54,513 nucleotides of DNA from Isosphaera sp. (GTDB taxonomy: Bacteria; Planctomycetota; Planctomycetia; Gemmatales; Gemmataceae): assembly GCA_013822345.1 (NCBI GenBank), contig PNKH01000046.1, forward strand, positions 1 through 54,513, written 5' to 3'. Below are positions 15,129 through 22,519 of this stretch, one piece after another. Made by a program: the position numbers and the translations under genes. Below the pieces are notes generated by a model, which was not told where the DNA came from, did not search any database, and saw only the letters and a list, made by a program, of their open reading frames with translations. Numbering within the stretch: position 1 is the stretch's first letter; every line of letters starts with the position of its first letter.

Positions 15129-15479
15129 ATGAGCAAGGTCCGGGAGAAGTGTGGGGCGGTGGCGACGGCGCGGCGGCCGCGGGCGGTCGTGGTCGGCGGG
15201 GCCCGCCGCGGCCGGGTCGCGGACCGGTTCCGCGAGCTCGGCTGGGAGGTGACCCCGGTCACCGCCGGGGCCGGCCTCGCCTGCGGCATCCTGAGCCTGG
15301 TGCGGAAGCCGGCGGTCGTGGTCCTGCCGGTGGACACCGGGTGGGAGAGCGGGTACCTGGTCGCGGCCAAGCTGCGGGCCGCCCGGCCGGGGCTGCGGGT
15401 GATCCTGGTCGCCCCGGCCCGGACCCCGTGGACCGAGCGGTTCGCCCGGTTCGTCGGGGCGACCCTGGTGGCCGGATGA
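15129..15479 (+). CDS. CheY-like pseudo-receiver protein (116 aa)
   Basis: The predicted alternation of strands and helices follows a receiver domain: RAVVVGG, RVADRFRELG, WEVTPVTAG, PAVVVLPVDTG, LVAAKLRAARPG, LRVILVAP. The acidic pair after strand 1 is missing and the usual phospho-Asp after strand 3 is not clearly present, so it would not be phosphorylated conventionally. ATG at 15129 with GGAGCGGGAG just upstream; a GTG at 15108 is an alternative. Single-gene unit ending at the edge of a palindrome. Fold assignment is inference. Confidence 0.6.
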   Translation: MSKVREKCGAVATARRPRAVVVGGARRGRVADRFRELGWEVTPVTAGAGLACGILSLVRKPAVVVLPVDTGWESGYLVAAKLRAARPGLRVILVAPARTPWTERFARFVGATLVAG

Positions 15480-15488
15480 CCCCCCGTT

Positions 15489-15566
15489 TAGCCGTGGCGC
15501 GGAGTCCTCGGAGCGGAGCGCGAGGTCTGCGTCGCGCTCCGCTCCGAGGACTCCGCGTCGCGGCTA
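15489..15566. repeat. palindrome, TAGCCGCGACGCGGAGT family, copy 1
   Basis: Arms 15489-15523 and 15532-15566, 33 of 35 bases complementary. Lies between convergent genes. A related element is at 36618-36688 and fragments are at 19215-19233 and 29590-29606. Confidence 0.9.
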
Positions 15567-15571
15567 CGCGG

Positions 15572-16039
15572 TCACTCCACCTCGAAGACGCATTCGATCT
15601 CGACGGCGATGTTCCCGGGCAGCGAGTTGTGCCCGACCGCGCTCCGCGCCCCGACCCCGTTCTCCTCCCCGAACACGTCCTTCATCAGCTCCGAGAACCC
15701 GTTGATCACCTTCGGCTGGTCGAGAAAGTCGTCGGTGCAGTTCACCATCCCGTAGGTCTTCAGCAGCCGCTTCACCTTCTTCAGCGACCCGAGGGTGTCC
15801 TTGACGGTGGCGAGGATCGCCAGGCCGGTCTGGCGGGCCGCCTCCTTCCCCTGGTCGACGGTCATGTCCTTCCCGAGCCGGCCGGTGATCATCGTCTTGT
15901 CGGCCTTCAGCGGGCCGTGCCCGGACACGAACAGCAGGGTGCCGTGCTTGACCGCCGTCTTGTACACGGCGACCGGCTTCGGGGCCGGCGGCAGGGTAAG
16001 GTGCAGCTCGTCGATCCGCTTGTCCGGGTCGCTCAGCAT
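15572..16039 (-). CDS. ridA: RidA/YjgF-family protein
   Basis: 155 residues. Family marks are LLFVSGHGPLKAD, DQGKEAARQTGLAILATVKD and the C-terminal NIAVEIECVFEVE; the usual imine-binding Arg is expected near VGARSAVGHNSLPGN. RidA proteins hydrolyse reactive enamines and imines from amino-acid dehydration. It follows the enolase-like gene by 55 bp on the same strand and may be the last member of the Liv transporter operon, which fits amino-acid turnover. Somewhat longer than the 128-residue E. coli protein. Confidence 0.9.
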   Translation of the reverse strand: MLSDPDKRIDELHLTLPPAPKPVAVYKTAVKHGTLLFVSGHGPLKADKTMITGRLGKDMTVDQGKEAARQTGLAILATVKDTLGSLKKVKRLLKTYGMVNCTDDFLDQPKVINGFSELMKDVFGEENGVGARSAVGHNSLPGNIAVEIECVFEVE

Positions 16040-16094
16040 GGCGGGCCTCCGTGGGGGGTGACCATGTGATACCCGGGCGGCGCGGGAACGGCAA

Positions 16095-17171
16095 TCACGC
16101 GACCCGCCACCGCCCCGCGCCCGGGCCGACCGCCAAGCCCAGCCCCGGCTCGGCCGGCGGCGCCAGCTTCCCGCCCTCCGCCCGCGGCCCGCCGGCGAAC
16201 ACGTCCTTGAACCACGCCACTGAGTCGACGTGCGGCACCCCGGCCAGCCCGCACGCCAGGTGGACCCCGACCTCCGGCATCCGGACCGGCGACACCGCCA
16301 CCTGGAACGCCTCGGCGACGGCCGCCACCTTCAGCACCGGGGTGATCCCGCCGAGCCGGCACACGTCAGGGCGGACGGTCCGGACGTGCCCGGCCCGGAT
16401 CGCCCGGAAGAACGCGTCGCGCGCCCCGAACCCGGCCCCGACCGCCAACGGCACCCCGGCCAGCCCGGCCAGCCGCGCGTACCCCACCTCGTCGGCCGCC
16501 GGCAGCGGGTCCTCGAACCAGTCGACCCCGACATCCTCGAAGAACAGGGCCAGCGCCTGGGCGGTGTTCAGGTCGAACCGGCCGTCGGCCGCGACCCCGA
16601 CCCAGGCCCCGTCCCCGAGCCCCTGGGACACCTCCAGCACCCGGTCGGCGTCGGCCTGCACGTCGCCCCCGCCGACCTCCAGCCGCACCCCGGCCGCCCC
16701 GTCCTTCAGCAGCGGCTTGGCGTTCACCACGTCGCGCCCCACGTCCGACCGGAAGAACGGCGCCGCCGGCCGGGCCGCCCCGAGCAACTCCGCCAGCGGC
16801 AGCCCGGCCGCCTTCGCCTTCACGTCCCACAGGGCCACGTCCACCGCCGCGTACGCCCGGGCCGCCAGCCCGGCGAACCCGACCGGCCGGAAGTGCCCCT
16901 CGGCCCGCGCCAGCAGGGCGTCGGTGTGCCGCGGGTCCGCCCCGGCGACGAGCGGCGACACCTCGGTGTCGATCAGCCCGCGGACGGCGGACGCCCCGGG
17001 GCCGAGCAGGTAGGTGAACCCGAGCCCCGTGACGCCGGCGTCGGTGTCGAGGTGGACCAGAACCAGATCGACCGCCGCCGGGCCGGGCGGGGTCGGGTCG
17101 GTGAGCGGGACGCGGGGCGGCTTCCCGAGCGGGACGCGGAGGTGGTCGGTGCGGAGCGCGGTGACGTGCAT
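16095..17171 (-). CDS. enolase-superfamily protein with degenerate active site
   Basis: 358 residues from ATG at 17171. Overall MR/MLE (mandelate racemase-like) architecture: N-terminal capping domain, ALWDVKAKAAGLPLAELLGA, and barrel motifs. Key residues look lost. Where the family has K-x-K the sequence is GVRLEV (Arg163, Glu165). The first metal-ligand strand reads VGVAADGRF with Ala194 in place of Asp. WFEDPL keeps Glu220. The third ligand site reads AVGAGFG with Ala246 where Glu is usual. The barrel scaffold, including RPDVCRLGGIT, is kept. Either a pseudoenzyme or a changed mechanism. Located after the Liv ATPase gene and before ridA. Confidence 0.82.
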   Translation of the reverse strand: MHVTALRTDHLRVPLGKPPRVPLTDPTPPGPAAVDLVLVHLDTDAGVTGLGFTYLLGPGASAVRGLIDTEVSPLVAGADPRHTDALLARAEGHFRPVGFAGLAARAYAAVDVALWDVKAKAAGLPLAELLGAARPAAPFFRSDVGRDVVNAKPLLKDGAAGVRLEVGGGDVQADADRVLEVSQGLGDGAWVGVAADGRFDLNTAQALALFFEDVGVDWFEDPLPAADEVGYARLAGLAGVPLAVGAGFGARDAFFRAIRAGHVRTVRPDVCRLGGITPVLKVAAVAEAFQVAVSPVRMPEVGVHLACGLAGVPHVDSVAWFKDVFAGGPRAEGGKLAPPAEPGLGLAVGPGAGRWRVA

Positions 17172-17180
17172 CAATTCCTT

Positions 17181-17242
17181 CCGTGGCACAGGCCGCCGGA
17201 CCCGTGCCCCTTGACCCACAGGTCTGGAGACCTGTGCCACGG
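17181..17242. repeat. palindrome with nested hairpin
   Basis: Outer arms CCGTGGCACAGG (17181-17192) and CCTGTGCCACGG (17231-17242); nested CACAGGTCT (17217-17225) with AGACCTGTG (17228-17236). The word CACAGG/CCTGTG appears three times, allowing alternative folds. Confidence 0.8.
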
Positions 17243-17250
17243 TAACCCGC

Positions 17251-19038
<1,788 letters not shown>

Positions 19039-19083
19039 GGGGTCCCCGGCACGTCGTCGATCAGCCCCGGGCCGATGTCCCCC

Positions 19084-19190
19084 GAACCCAGGCCGTTGGC
19101 CTGGGCTGAGGGAGGCCGCCCCTTCGGGGCTTGGGGTGGCTGAGGGCCGAAGGCCCGCCCTCCCTCAGCCCAGGCCAACGGCCTGGGTTC
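19084..19190. repeat. palindrome with two tip hairpins, 30-bp perfect arms
   Basis: Arms 19084-19113 and 19161-19190. The interior carries GCCCC-TTC-GGGGC and GGGCCGAAGGCCCG (19144-19157); the latter 14-mer recurs at 29633-29646. It fills the LivM/LivGF gap. Confidence 0.9.
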
Positions 19191-19214
19191 TTCGTCCCCG
19201 GCGCGCTCCCCTTC

Positions 19215-19233
19215 GGGTCGCGGCTAAACGGGT
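19215..19233. repeat. fragment of the TAGCCGCGACGCGGAGT repeat family
   Basis: GGGTCGCGGCTAAACGGG matches one half of the arms at 36665-36688. It covers the TAG stop codon of livM (19224-19226). Confidence 0.65.
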
Positions 19234-20297
19234 TTCGTCGGCTCCTCGTGCAACTCCCGCCGGTGCCGGGCCTCCGGCAGCATCCCCTCGGGGCGGTACC
19301 GCATCATCAGGATCAGCACCGTGCCGAAGATCATCAGCTTCCACCCGCTGACCTTGGTGTACGACGGGCCGCCGGAGCCGACGTGCTCCTGGATCAGGTT
19401 GTCCAGGACGTTGGTGGCGACCCGGTCGAACCCCATCAGCAGGAGAGTACCGAGCAGCACCCCGGGGCGGTTCCCGAGCCCACCGAGGATGACGCAGCAG
19501 ACCATCGTCATCGACAGGGTGAAGTCGAACCCCTGGGGGTTGCCGGTCCCCTGCAGGGCGATCGCGTACAGGGCCCCGGCCAGCCCCGCCAGCCCGGCCC
19601 CGACGGCGATGGCGGCGAGCTTCAGCCGGGCCGGGTTCAGCCCGGTGCAGGCGGCGGCCAACTCGTCCTCCCGCAGGGCCACCCACGCCCGCCCGAGCCG
19701 GCTCCGCTCCAGGTTCCGGAGGAACAGCATCACCAGCCCGAGGACCCCCAGGGCGAGGAAGTACAGGTACGGGTACCGGTACCACCGCACCCCCCACCCC
19801 GGGAACAGCCGCCACCCCGACAGGTCCGCGTCCTCCGCCACCCCCGGGACCGGCCCTGCCCCGATCGGGTTCATCCCCTTCGTCCCCTCGGTGATCGCGT
19901 CCAGGTTGCGGATCGCGTACAGGGTGATCAGCCCGAACCCGAGGGTGACCAGGGCCAGGTAGTCCCCGCGGAGGCGCAGGACCGGGGCGGTGGTGGCCAC
20001 CCCGGCGGCGGCGGCGGCCAGGGTGGCGGCCGTGGCGGCCACCAGGAAGCTCTGCCCGAACGGGAAGTACGGGACCGTGAGGATGCCGACGGTGTACGCC
20101 CCGATCCCGAAGAACGCCGCGATCCCCAGGTGCAGGAGCCCGGCGTACCCGATCACCACGTTCAGCCCAAGGGCCAGGACCGCGTAGACGAACAGGACGG
20201 TGAACTGCTCCCCCCGGTTCGGCTCGGCGACCGGCAGGAACGGGTACGCGGCCAGGAGCACGAACAGGGCCGGGACCCAGTACCGCCCGGGGCTCAT
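19224..20297 (-). CDS. livM: branched-chain amino-acid-type ABC permease LivM
   Basis: 357 residues, about ten membrane segments. Marks include LNVVIGYAGLLHLGIAAFFG near the N-terminus and the transmission loop LNPARLKLAAIAVGAGLAG, standard in LivM. ATG at 20297 overlaps the livH stop as ATGA, which fixes the start; a longer in-frame reading comes from livH itself. Forms the translocation pore with LivH in the inner membrane and contacts the fused ATPase. The C-terminal tail (RRELHEEPTKPV) ends in a stop that lies in a repeat fragment. Confidence 0.93.
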   Translation of the reverse strand: MSPGRYWVPALFVLLAAYPFLPVAEPNRGEQFTVLFVYAVLALGLNVVIGYAGLLHLGIAAFFGIGAYTVGILTVPYFPFGQSFLVAATAATLAAAAAGVATTAPVLRLRGDYLALVTLGFGLITLYAIRNLDAITEGTKGMNPIGAGPVPGVAEDADLSGWRLFPGWGVRWYRYPYLYFLALGVLGLVMLFLRNLERSRLGRAWVALREDELAAACTGLNPARLKLAAIAVGAGLAGLAGALYAIALQGTGNPQGFDFTLSMTMVCCVILGGLGNRPGVLLGTLLLMGFDRVATNVLDNLIQEHVGSGGPSYTKVSGWKLMIFGTVLILMMRYRPEGMLPEARHRRELHEEPTKPV

Positions 20298-21250
20298 ACC
20301 TTCTCCCGGGTGCGGGCCCCGAGCAGGCCGGCAGGGCGGAACACGAGGATGACGATGAGGATGGCGAAGACGGTGGCCTCGCTCCACTTCGCCCCGAGGT
20401 ACGCCTTCGACAGCTCCCCGACGACCCCGATGACCAGCCCGCCGACGACCGCCCCGGGGATGTTCCCGACCCCCCCGAGGACGGCCGCGGTGAACGCGTA
20501 CAGCCCGTTCTGGAACCCCATCTGGAAGTCCACCGCCTTGATGTACAGGCCGTAGACGACGGCCGCCACCCCGGCCAGGGCCCCGCCGAGGGCGAACGTG
20601 GCGGACACCACCCGGTCCACGTCCACCCCCATGAGCCGGGCGGCGGTCGGGTTCTGGGCGGTCGCCCGCATGGCCTTGCCGAGCGGGGTGTACCGGACGA
20701 ACAGGGTGAGGGCGAGCATGGCCGGAGCGGTCACCCCGACCACCATCACGTCCTTCCAGGTGAGGCGGAGCCCGTCCGAGGCCAGCAGGTTGGTGTCCGG
20801 GATGAGGTCCGGGAACTTGACCGGGCTGGGCCCCTTCCAGAACAGCCCGAGGTTGACGAAGACGAAGCTGACCCCGACGGCGGAGACGATGGCGGTCAGC
20901 TTCGGGCTGGCCCGGAGCGGCCGGTACACCACCCGGTCGGCGGCCACGTTCAGGGCGGCGCAGAACAGGGCGGCGGCCGCGATCCCGCCGGCGACCATCC
21001 AGGCCAGCAGGTACGCCGGGGCGGAGGCCGCGAAGGCGGGGTCGGTCAGCCCGGACCAGGCGAGGTGGGTGACGGCCAGGAACGCCCCCAGCATGAACAG
21101 GTCGCCGTGGGCGAAGTTGATCAGCTCGATGATCCCGTAGACCATCGTGTACCCGAGGGCGATCAGGGCGTACAGGGAGCCCATGACCAGCCCGGTCACG
21201 AGGAACTGCCCGAACCCGGCGGCCTCGGCCTGGGCGAACAACTCCGGCAT
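20294..21250 (-). CDS. livH: branched-chain amino-acid-type ABC permease LivH
   Basis: 318 residues. Classic LivH opening LVTGLVMGSLYALIALGYTM followed by IIELINFAHGDLFMLGAF; the ATPase-contact loop is AARLMGVDVDRVVSATFALGG. About eight or nine membrane segments. The ATG at 21250 follows the binding-protein stop by 20 bp; ends in a 4-bp overlap with livM. Inner-membrane permease of the same importer. Confidence 0.94.
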   Translation of the reverse strand: MPELFAQAEAAGFGQFLVTGLVMGSLYALIALGYTMVYGIIELINFAHGDLFMLGAFLAVTHLAWSGLTDPAFAASAPAYLLAWMVAGGIAAAALFCAALNVAADRVVYRPLRASPKLTAIVSAVGVSFVFVNLGLFWKGPSPVKFPDLIPDTNLLASDGLRLTWKDVMVVGVTAPAMLALTLFVRYTPLGKAMRATAQNPTAARLMGVDVDRVVSATFALGGALAGVAAVVYGLYIKAVDFQMGFQNGLYAFTAAVLGGVGNIPGAVVGGLVIGVVGELSKAYLGAKWSEATVFAILIVILVFRPAGLLGARTREKV

Positions 21251-21270: not shown

Positions 21271-22482
21271 TCACTCGGAGACGGTCCGGACCGGCTTGAA
21301 CGGCCAGCCCTCGACCTTGCTGACGGTCAGCACCTTCAGGGTGGTGTCCCCGTCCGGGTCGAAGCTCCACTTCCCGAGGGCGCCCTTGTCGAAGTCCTTG
21401 GTGGCCAGGACCGCCTCCCGGATCGCCTCCCGGTCCTTCCTCCCGACCTTCTTGATCGCCTCCAGGACGACTTTGGCGGCCTCGTACCCGTACACCGCGT
21501 ACGCCTCCGGGTCGGCCCCGTGCTTCTCCTTGTACTTCCGGACGAACTCGGCCCCGGCCCCTTTCAGCTGGGACGGGTCGAACCCGCCGACGGTGGCGTA
21601 GCACGGGACCGCCTTGACCGTGTCCAGCCCGGCCGCGTCCACGAACGACTTCTCGTAGCACCCGTCCGGGACCATGAGCGGGCAGGTCAGCCCCTCCCCC
21701 TTCATGTCGATGGCGATCTGCGGCCCCTTGGTCACCGTGGTCCCGCCGAAGTACAGGAGGTCGGGGTTCTTCCCCTTGATGGTGGCGATCACGGTCTTGA
21801 AGTTCTGCTGGCTGGCGACGATGCTGTCGTGCCCGAGCACCTCGATGCCCAGATCCCCGCACTTCTTGATGAACAGCCCGGCGATCCCAGACCCGTACAG
21901 CTCCTTGTCGTCCAGGACGTACACCCGCTTGGCCCCCAGCACCTCCTTGGCGAAGACCGCGCTGAGCGGCCCCTGGACGAAGTCGTTCGGGCAGACCCGG
22001 CAGAAGGTCACCTTCCCCGACTTGCGGAAGATGTCCGGCTTCCCGGACTGGTCCCCGGGGACCTTCTTGGTCAGTTGGACCGACGTGCAGGCGGGGGAAA
22101 TCTGGACGAGCCCGGCCTCGTTCAGGATCGGCATCGAGTTCTCGGCCGCCCCCGAGTTGTACGGGCCGATGAACGCCATCACGTTCGGGTCGTTCGCCGC
22201 CTCCCGGGCGTTATCCTTCTCCTTCGCCGCGTCCCACCCGCCTTGGGCGGCGGTCGCGTCGTCCATGTCCTGGTGGCGGAGCTTCATCCCGGCGACCTCG
22301 CCGCCCGACTCCTCCAGCGCCATCTTCAGGCCGTTGACGATCGACTCCGTCTGCCCCTGGGCGATCCCGGTCCGCGGCAGGCTGGACGCGATCACGACCG
22401 TGTCCTTGCTCCCGCCGCACCCCCCCAGGAGGAGCGACCCGGCCCCGCCGGCCGCGGCGGTGAGGAACTTGCGACGGTCCAC
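21271..22482 (-). CDS. Liv-type periplasmic substrate-binding lipoprotein
   Basis: 403 residues from a GTG at 22482, chosen because GGGAG lies just upstream and the protein then begins MDRRKFLTAAAGGAGSLLL, a twin-arginine-like signal leading to lipobox LLGGC. The mature domain is a type I periplasmic binding fold (Peripla_BP_6): DTVVIASSLPRTGIAQGQ, VMAFIGPYNSGAAENSMPIL, KRVYVLDDKELYGSG, EAYAVYGYEAAKVV. First gene of the importer operon, with a good promoter candidate upstream. Substrate is probably an amino acid or related amide or urea compound; specificity cannot be read. Confidence 0.92.
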   Translation of the reverse strand: MDRRKFLTAAAGGAGSLLLGGCGGSKDTVVIASSLPRTGIAQGQTESIVNGLKMALEESGGEVAGMKLRHQDMDDATAAQGGWDAAKEKDNAREAANDPNVMAFIGPYNSGAAENSMPILNEAGLVQISPACTSVQLTKKVPGDQSGKPDIFRKSGKVTFCRVCPNDFVQGPLSAVFAKEVLGAKRVYVLDDKELYGSGIAGLFIKKCGDLGIEVLGHDSIVASQQNFKTVIATIKGKNPDLLYFGGTTVTKGPQIAIDMKGEGLTCPLMVPDGCYEKSFVDAAGLDTVKAVPCYATVGGFDPSQLKGAGAEFVRKYKEKHGADPEAYAVYGYEAAKVVLEAIKKVGRKDREAIREAVLATKDFDKGALGKWSFDPDGDTTLKVLTVSKVEGWPFKPVRTVSE

Positions 22483-22519
22483 GGTGAACTCCCGGTGAGG
22501 GCGGGGTGGGGCCAGCGAG

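Follow-up and report, generated by a model that had tools for sequence, protein, structure and literature searches.

A transporter-associated pseudoenzyme lineage of the mandelate racemase subgroup in the bacterial family Gemmataceae

What does a cell gain from an enolase-superfamily protein in which most residues of the catalytic core have been replaced? The question is raised by a gene on the 54,513-nucleotide stretch of Isosphaera sp. DNA analysed here (the window), encoding a protein of 358 amino acids for which the name MRpsi is used. The enolase superfamily is a textbook example of how new reactions evolve around a single conserved core of metal and lysine, and its chemistry needs a metal and at least one base. 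A sequence-only reading of the locus had taken MRpsi for a maintained pseudoenzyme, perhaps a regulator, lying between a Liv ATPase and RidA. In what follows “dead” denotes a full-length gene whose catalytic site is lost, “intact” one that keeps all seven catalytic and metal residues.

The reading frame of MRpsi is unbroken, running from an ATG at 17171 to a stop at 16095, and its product matches the C- and N-terminal MR_MLE domains of Pfam (PF13378, 8.4e-38; PF02746, 6.5e-17). The AlphaFold2 model is confident (mean pLDDT 90.6, pTM 0.91; the low-confidence stretch is residues 18–27, in the N-terminal part) and displays the two-domain fold of the mandelate racemase (MR) subgroup, namely a capping domain and a modified TIM barrel. 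Its top structural match is 2pp3_A (Z 46.6, rmsd 1.9, 353 residues), in a tie with several others, and further matches include 5xd7, a 3,6-anhydro-L-galactonate cycloisomerase (Z 46.2), and mandelate racemase itself (Z ~45); the model of an intact relative, L038, reaches a mean pLDDT of 94.4. At E ≤0.001, 153 distinct sequences of solved structures match MRpsi, the best being of the talarate/galactarate-dehydratase type. Thus, the premise that frame and fold have been kept was correct.

The active-site positions were set by alignment to solved enzymes of the talarate/galactarate dehydratase type and are listed in Table 1 with the numbering of MR, whose residues K164, D195, E221 and D270 we take to be catalytic or metal sites. 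In mandelate racemase Lys166 and His297 serve as the acid–base catalysts and Glu247 binds Mg2+ (PMC9835602). Of the seven catalytic and metal residues, MRpsi keeps two and each of the 17 intact orthologues all seven. The K-x-K motif that an active member carries at the end of barrel strand 2 reads R163-L-E165, the R-L-E of the sequence-only reading; among the three acidic metal ligands (Asp, Glu, Glu) the first is Ala194 and the third Ala246, again in agreement with that reading, and Glu220 is indeed the sole survivor of the metal site, acidic residues being absent from the other two positions. The loss goes further than had been noticed, since the Asp–His dyad of strands 6 and 7 is also broken: D269 is present and the His has become V296. 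In the dead relatives Lys occurs in none of 39 rows at position 163 and in one of 39 at position 165. The dead catalytic site of MRpsi is therefore well supported, and an enzyme-family fold from which the conserved catalytic motif is gone is what a pseudoenzyme presents. Because both the metal set and the base set are missing, classical activity is very unlikely; the enolisation on which the superfamily relies would be impossible without a full Mg2+ site and the bases.

Table 1. Features of the window: genes of the transporter locus and residues of MRpsi, with their state in the 39 dead and 17 intact family members
Feature	Position	Strand	Assignment	State or evidence
MRpsi	16095..17171	-	enolase-superfamily protein of the MR subgroup, catalytic site dead, 358 aa	translation, Pfam, AlphaFold2
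R105	16857..16859	-	Arg in N-terminal domain	R 38/39 dead; Q 16/17 intact
R163-L164-E165	16677..16685	-	replaces K-x-K (MR K164/K166)	R163 24/39, E165 33/39 dead; K at both sites 17/17 intact
A194	16590..16592	-	replaces metal-ligand Asp (MR D195)	A/S/T 33/39, D 2/39 dead; D 17/17 intact
E220	16512..16514	-	sole kept metal-ligand position (MR E221)	E 30/39 dead, 17/17 intact
A246	16434..16436	-	replaces metal-ligand Glu (MR E247)	E 0/39 dead, 17/17 intact
R267	16371..16373	-		R 39/39 dead; Gln 17/17 intact
D269	16365..16367	-	Asp of the Asp–His dyad, kept (MR D270)	D 37/39 dead
V296	16284..16286	-	replaces catalytic His (MR H297)	H 1/39 dead, 17/17 intact
R297	16281..16283	-	Arg beside the lost His	R 35/39 dead; L 17/17 intact
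RidA-family protein	15572..16039	-	downstream of MRpsi	Pfam PF14588 8.4e-15
LivG-LivF-type fused ATPases	17251..19038	-	branched-chain-amino-acid/urea-type ABC transporter, directly upstream of MRpsi	
LivM-type permease	19224..20306	-	start approximate	NCBIfam PRK11301 5.7e-61, best match, under cut-off
LivH-type permease	20294..21193	-	searched stretch; true start slightly upstream	PRK10740 9.3e-65, best match, under cut-off
LivK-type periplasmic binding protein	21271..22488	-	start approximate	PRK15404 1.1e-28, only match, under cut-off

Could the usual activity nevertheless be present, the ligands being masked by a shifted alignment? The one indication in this direction, a weak one, is that 26 of the 39 dead rows carry Asp at position 249, but MRpsi has Gly there and its residues 246–250 include no acidic residue at all; Asp196, which MRpsi does possess, is shared by just 14 of the 39. 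No obvious acidic stand-in is found near the lost ligands of MRpsi, the flanking motifs fix the register, no acidic residue conserved in the clade lies beside A194 or A246, and both lysines and the His are missing as well. The shift is accordingly rejected and a conventional active enzyme is scarcely credible.

An error confined to one genome, or a pseudogene, is likewise rejected: the same loss is common to 38 other full-length orthologues, and chance or a sequencing slip is excluded for that reason. Among 95 genomes of the Gemmataceae (source genome included), 60 have a match to MRpsi at E 1e-30 or better; the full-length genes are dead in 39 of these, MRpsi among them, and intact in 17, three genomes hold fragments (G016, G025, G083) and one (G037) a gene of another subgroup. 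In a draw of 297 genomes from the class, two more genomes outside the family have a match at E 1e-40, with canonical residues in the aligned stretch.

The 39 dead rows form one clade, with support of 95/98 after removal of 13 diagnostic columns (13 of the 17 intact rows used) and an SH-aLRT value of 99 in a tree containing all 17 intact rows. The latter tree comprised 74 rows and omitted the fragments L030, L034, L040, L097 and L101, the same-gene duplicates L001, L037, L038 and L039, 18 distant enolase-superfamily loci and L066, which had no usable match; the former further omitted L086, L088, L089 and L090, near-copies of L087, together with 16 of the 18 outgroup rows, L183 being added. Rooted on two distant rows, the intact rows branch at more than one point outside the dead clade, in an order that is moderately supported, and L183, an intact gene from another family of the class, lies outside the dead and intact family rows altogether (96/98). 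Since the intact rows and L183 are all outside the dead clade, the loss is derived. Within the clade the closest relative of MRpsi is 75% identical; L079, L081, L091, L092 and L094 have long branches, and the basal position of L092 is not settled exactly, the other 38 rows grouping together with 73/88. MRpsi is thus a member of a pseudoenzyme lineage of one bacterial family, which descends from an intact MR-subgroup protein resembling talarate/galactarate dehydratases and from which both lysines of the catalytic pair, the catalytic His and all but one of the three metal ligands have disappeared, the fold being kept.

The taxonomic distribution also bears on the idea that MRpsi is a purely structural partner, for example the dead subunit of oligomers shared with an intact paralogue from the enolase superfamily. 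Mandelate racemase forms homo-octamers (PMC9835602), the source genome has other enolase-superfamily genes, several of them with canonical motifs, and G006, G026, G088 and G094 carry a distant second gene with an intact K-x-K. On the other hand, the paralogues in its own genome share no more than 27–35% identity with MRpsi in the matched parts and are found on different contigs, and no genome of the 95 carries, among its matches at E 1e-30, a dead and an intact member of the MRpsi family together; a purely structural role is for these reasons improbable. Other enolase-superfamily matches are also clustered in the source genome (L002, L003, L005, L006 and L007, at G000:C3:122042-131939), and the metal and lysine motifs are canonical in at least some of them.

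Maintenance of the dead genes by selection is indicated by the dN/dS comparison among orthologues, the check that the sequence-only reading had suggested. In all 32 dead pairs of more than 74% identity omega is well below 1, the NG86 values ranging from 0.09 to 0.36 and thus staying under 0.4 throughout, and the YN00 values from 0.04 to 0.10 in the 12 of 32 pairs for which one was obtained; the dS values are rough, third-position GC being as high as 99%. Intact pairs are lower, with NG86 omega of 0.02–0.14 where dS was computable and one value of 0.26. For MRpsi itself the two estimates, 0.23 and 0.36, come from NG86 alone and are rough, the nearest relative being 75% identical. No internal stop codon occurs among the matches listed from the 95-genome search. 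The dead clade is under purifying selection, and the earlier proposal of a maintained pseudoenzyme is well supported by the single clade, the open frames, the selection and the retention of the gene after it had left the liv operon. As judged from sequence, MRpsi is very probably a maintained pseudoenzyme devoid of classical activity.

What, then, is being maintained? Four of the 358 columns hold a residue common to at least 35 of the 39 dead rows and unlike that of the intact majority, namely R105 (38), R267 (39), P278 (37) and R297 (35). Fifteen columns are invariant over the dead rows, the first by construction, because a rule fixed the start codon and the first residue was always written as M, and R267 alone among the fifteen departs from the intact majority. 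Lying two residues ahead of D269, R267 is expected to face the barrel interior. The somewhat higher overall Arg content of the dead rows (6.9% vs 5.1% in the intact ones) may contribute to the new arginines, but by itself does not explain 39 out of 39.

In the 22-row subclade to which MRpsi belongs, six of nine MR active-site positions are invariant, compared with 77 of 358 columns overall (p 0.004), and ten invariant residues lie at or beside the former active site (R163, E165, E220, D221, R267, D269, V296, R297, E300 and D316). These ten residues are an argument for a re-invented enzyme, in which a pocket made of E165, R267, D269 and R297, joined in the 22-row subclade by R163, E220 and D316, would catalyse, without metal, a new reaction of an imported amino acid or amino-acid derivative; the persistence of the gene away from liv in several genomes would also suit an enzyme. 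However, the second subclade, of eight rows, has other residues at R163 and E220, and the dead subclades disagree at positions 91, 92, 95, 145 and 146, all of them fixed among the intact rows. Furthermore, we know of no precedent for metal-free catalysis in the enolase superfamily, which also counts against such an enzyme, and we regard it as rather unlikely. In the eight-row subclade only three of the nine active-site positions are invariant (p 0.66), and over all 39 dead rows the old active site has no excess of conservation, none of the nine being invariant; a single conserved ligand for the whole clade is consequently doubtful.

A second line of evidence comes from the neighbourhood of the gene. 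On the minus strand of the window the genes run livK-livH-livM-livGF(fused)-MRpsi-ridA. The fused ATPases pass the NCBIfam cut-offs for LivG (393.7 bits, cut-off 362), UrtE (338.1, 285.8) and UrtD (313.9, 304.1) and stay under that for LivF (328.8, 441). As the UrtD and UrtE cut-offs are passed too, “amino-acid” stands for the usual substrate class of the family and the substrate of this transporter is putative. Besides the window, G040 (L094) apparently has the LivG–LivF fusion, the two pieces being separate in most other genomes; in the window the LivG half bears an insert of ~90 residues, with two hydrophobic segments recognised by eye, before residue 159, where the match to the LivG model resumes. 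The 79-base spacer between livGF and MRpsi (17172-17250) forms a hairpin of high stability (-47.8 kcal/mol, z -5.2) whose core motif has 17 genome-wide matches with ≤2 mismatches vs none for the reversed control, and which is therefore an interspersed palindromic repeat. An operon break between liv and MRpsi is rejected, no terminator-like site being present in 15400-19400 in spite of the strong hairpin repeat there.

Linkage across the family was scored when a transporter match of >100 bits was found on the same strand within 2 kb upstream. By this rule 26 of the 39 dead genes follow LivF, hence a liv-type ABC operon, and one, L092, an APC permease, whereas a permease precedes 15 of the 17 intact genes (14 APC, one SNF symporter); the two left are L067, with too little upstream sequence, and L036, which is unlinked. 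The match ends are 8–246 bp apart in 38 of the 42 linked genes and 448–1409 bp apart in the other four (L070, L022, L068, L021), which may have a gene in between. Fragments of the gene in G016, G025 and G045, outside the 39, adjoin LivF too. LivH is detected at E 1e-30 in 35 of the 39 genomes with a dead gene (it was not found in G003, G014, G024 and G091, the last of which has a LivFG match) vs none of the 17 with an intact one, and a single APC permease query matches at E 1e-60 in 14 of 17 intact-gene vs 6 of 39 dead-gene genomes; no more than 11 candidates per genome were scored for APC, and its absences hold at that depth. The genomes being related, none of these linkage, LivH and APC counts represent independent events, and the change of transporter and the loss of catalysis may reflect one shared history and not a functional link. 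Across all 95 genomes the liv operon and the type of APC permease that precedes intact genes are nearly mutually exclusive (46 genomes have LivH at E 1e-30, 46 have APC at E 1e-60 and 6 have both).

The placement between a Liv ATPase and RidA proposed from the sequence holds as a family trait for its first half; the second half is looser. Indeed, ridA is present in 85 of the 95 genomes and lies within 2 kb downstream of 16 of the 39 dead genes, and as a specific partner it is rejected.

The association with liv has exceptions of its own. Of the 12 unlinked dead genes, L069 and L076 have <900 bases of upstream sequence and L014, L015, L083 and L091 0.9–1.5 kb, and for the other six (L008, L009, L010, L018, L019 and L024) no liv gene was found in ~7 kb upstream; L008-L010 are the nearest relatives of MRpsi. 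At the loci of these three nearest relatives (L102, L103 and L104) the dead gene, away from liv, and a D-Ala-D-Ala-ligase-type ATP-grasp gene are divergently oriented. G051 and G072 lack the MR gene between livF and ridA, the liv operon leading directly into ridA, and no MR copy was seen near the liv loci of G009, G010, G033 and G073; the MRpsi protein is therefore dispensable to the transporter in those lineages. That the gene is missing from some liv operons and has moved elsewhere in other genomes lowers the confidence in a transport role, and the clean absences might suggest that it is a passenger of the operon in decay, useless or nearly so, as might the several long branches of the dead clade, the average rate at which the old pocket positions evolve over the whole clade and an omega above that of intact pairs. 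Yet omega is well below 1, the matches listed have no internal stop, R267 is invariant in 39 of 39 and copies have been retained after leaving the operon; selection and fixed arginines argue against a dead relic, and decay is quite improbable.

Because the gene recurs behind three kinds of transporter, before as well as after catalysis was lost, a ligand-binding role linked to transport is the best single guess. MRpsi would be a cytosolic accessory of the transporter that binds a ligand without metal, the new arginines probably taking the place of Mg2+ either as counter-charge for a bound carboxylate or through internal salt bridges; it might, for example, report an imported amino acid, or its keto or hydroxy acid, to the LivGF ATPases. 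That the job of MRpsi is tied to the transporter is put forward tentatively, at slightly less than even chances, and the explanation as a whole, i.e., a pseudoenzyme lineage that now serves as a metal-free ligand-binding accessory of import, we hold with the same reserve; a regulatory function, as first proposed, is plausible. The dead, APC-linked L092 near the base of the dead clade suggests that catalysis was lost before the transporter was exchanged. A full scenario can be imagined in which a TIM-barrel enzyme lost catalysis behind an APC permease, as in L092, converted its Mg2+ site into a set of arginines binding an amino-acid-derived carboxylate metal-free, and was later re-attached to an unrelated, liv-type ABC transporter to become a sensor gating its ATPases by the amino-acid pool of the cell; spelled out to this extent, the scenario is unlikely to be right.

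As to the ancestral function, the neighbours of the intact sisters (APC, SNF, HPPD-like, homogentisate-dioxygenase-like) suggest amino-acid metabolism, and their best NCBIfam matches are too far below cut-off to name a substrate. At L130:3232-10612 an intact gene has SNF and APC transporter genes to one side; to the other side are an HPPD-like gene and one weakly resembling homogentisate dioxygenase, a hint of aromatic amino-acid catabolism.

A lineage that has discarded the core of the superfamily and kept the fold, with intact orthologues in sister genera, makes the route from enzyme to pseudoenzyme directly testable. Automatic annotation is likely to call the dead proteins racemases or dehydratases, which is probably wrong, and their shared place behind APC, SNF and liv-type ABC transporters points to a possible non-catalytic role in planctomycete amino-acid import. 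Within the open-access literature searched, no described MR-subgroup pseudoenzyme and no Gemmata case was found; in that literature the novelty lies in an MR-subgroup pseudoenzyme lineage with a transporter association.

Among the systems with which MRpsi can be compared, talarate/galactarate dehydratase (2pp0/2pp3) and its Polaromonas relative (2og9/3cb3) have the same two-domain fold (Z 45.1–46.6, rmsd 1.9, 27–32% identity), but MRpsi has other residues at the two catalytic lysines, at two of the metal-ligand positions and at the His. Its score against the NCBIfam model of L-talarate/galactarate dehydratase (NF047820) is 188.3 bits, below the cut-off of 500, and three intact sisters, for which, as for MRpsi, the same model is the best match, are also far below it with 305–319 bits. 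The intact sisters (L033, L036/L038, L082, L084, L087), orthologous to MRpsi by the tree and usually located after a transporter as well, differ in keeping all seven residues and in the transporter type, APC or SNF and not liv. Mandelate racemase (1mns etc.) has the fold in common (Z ~45) and served as the position-by-position frame of reference; its Lys166 and His297 (PMC9835602) are Glu and Val in MRpsi. Finally, pseudoenzymes in general, as presented in PMC10415035 and PMC10211241, resemble MRpsi in that the fold is kept, the catalytic motif is lost and a ligand-binding or regulatory role is probable.
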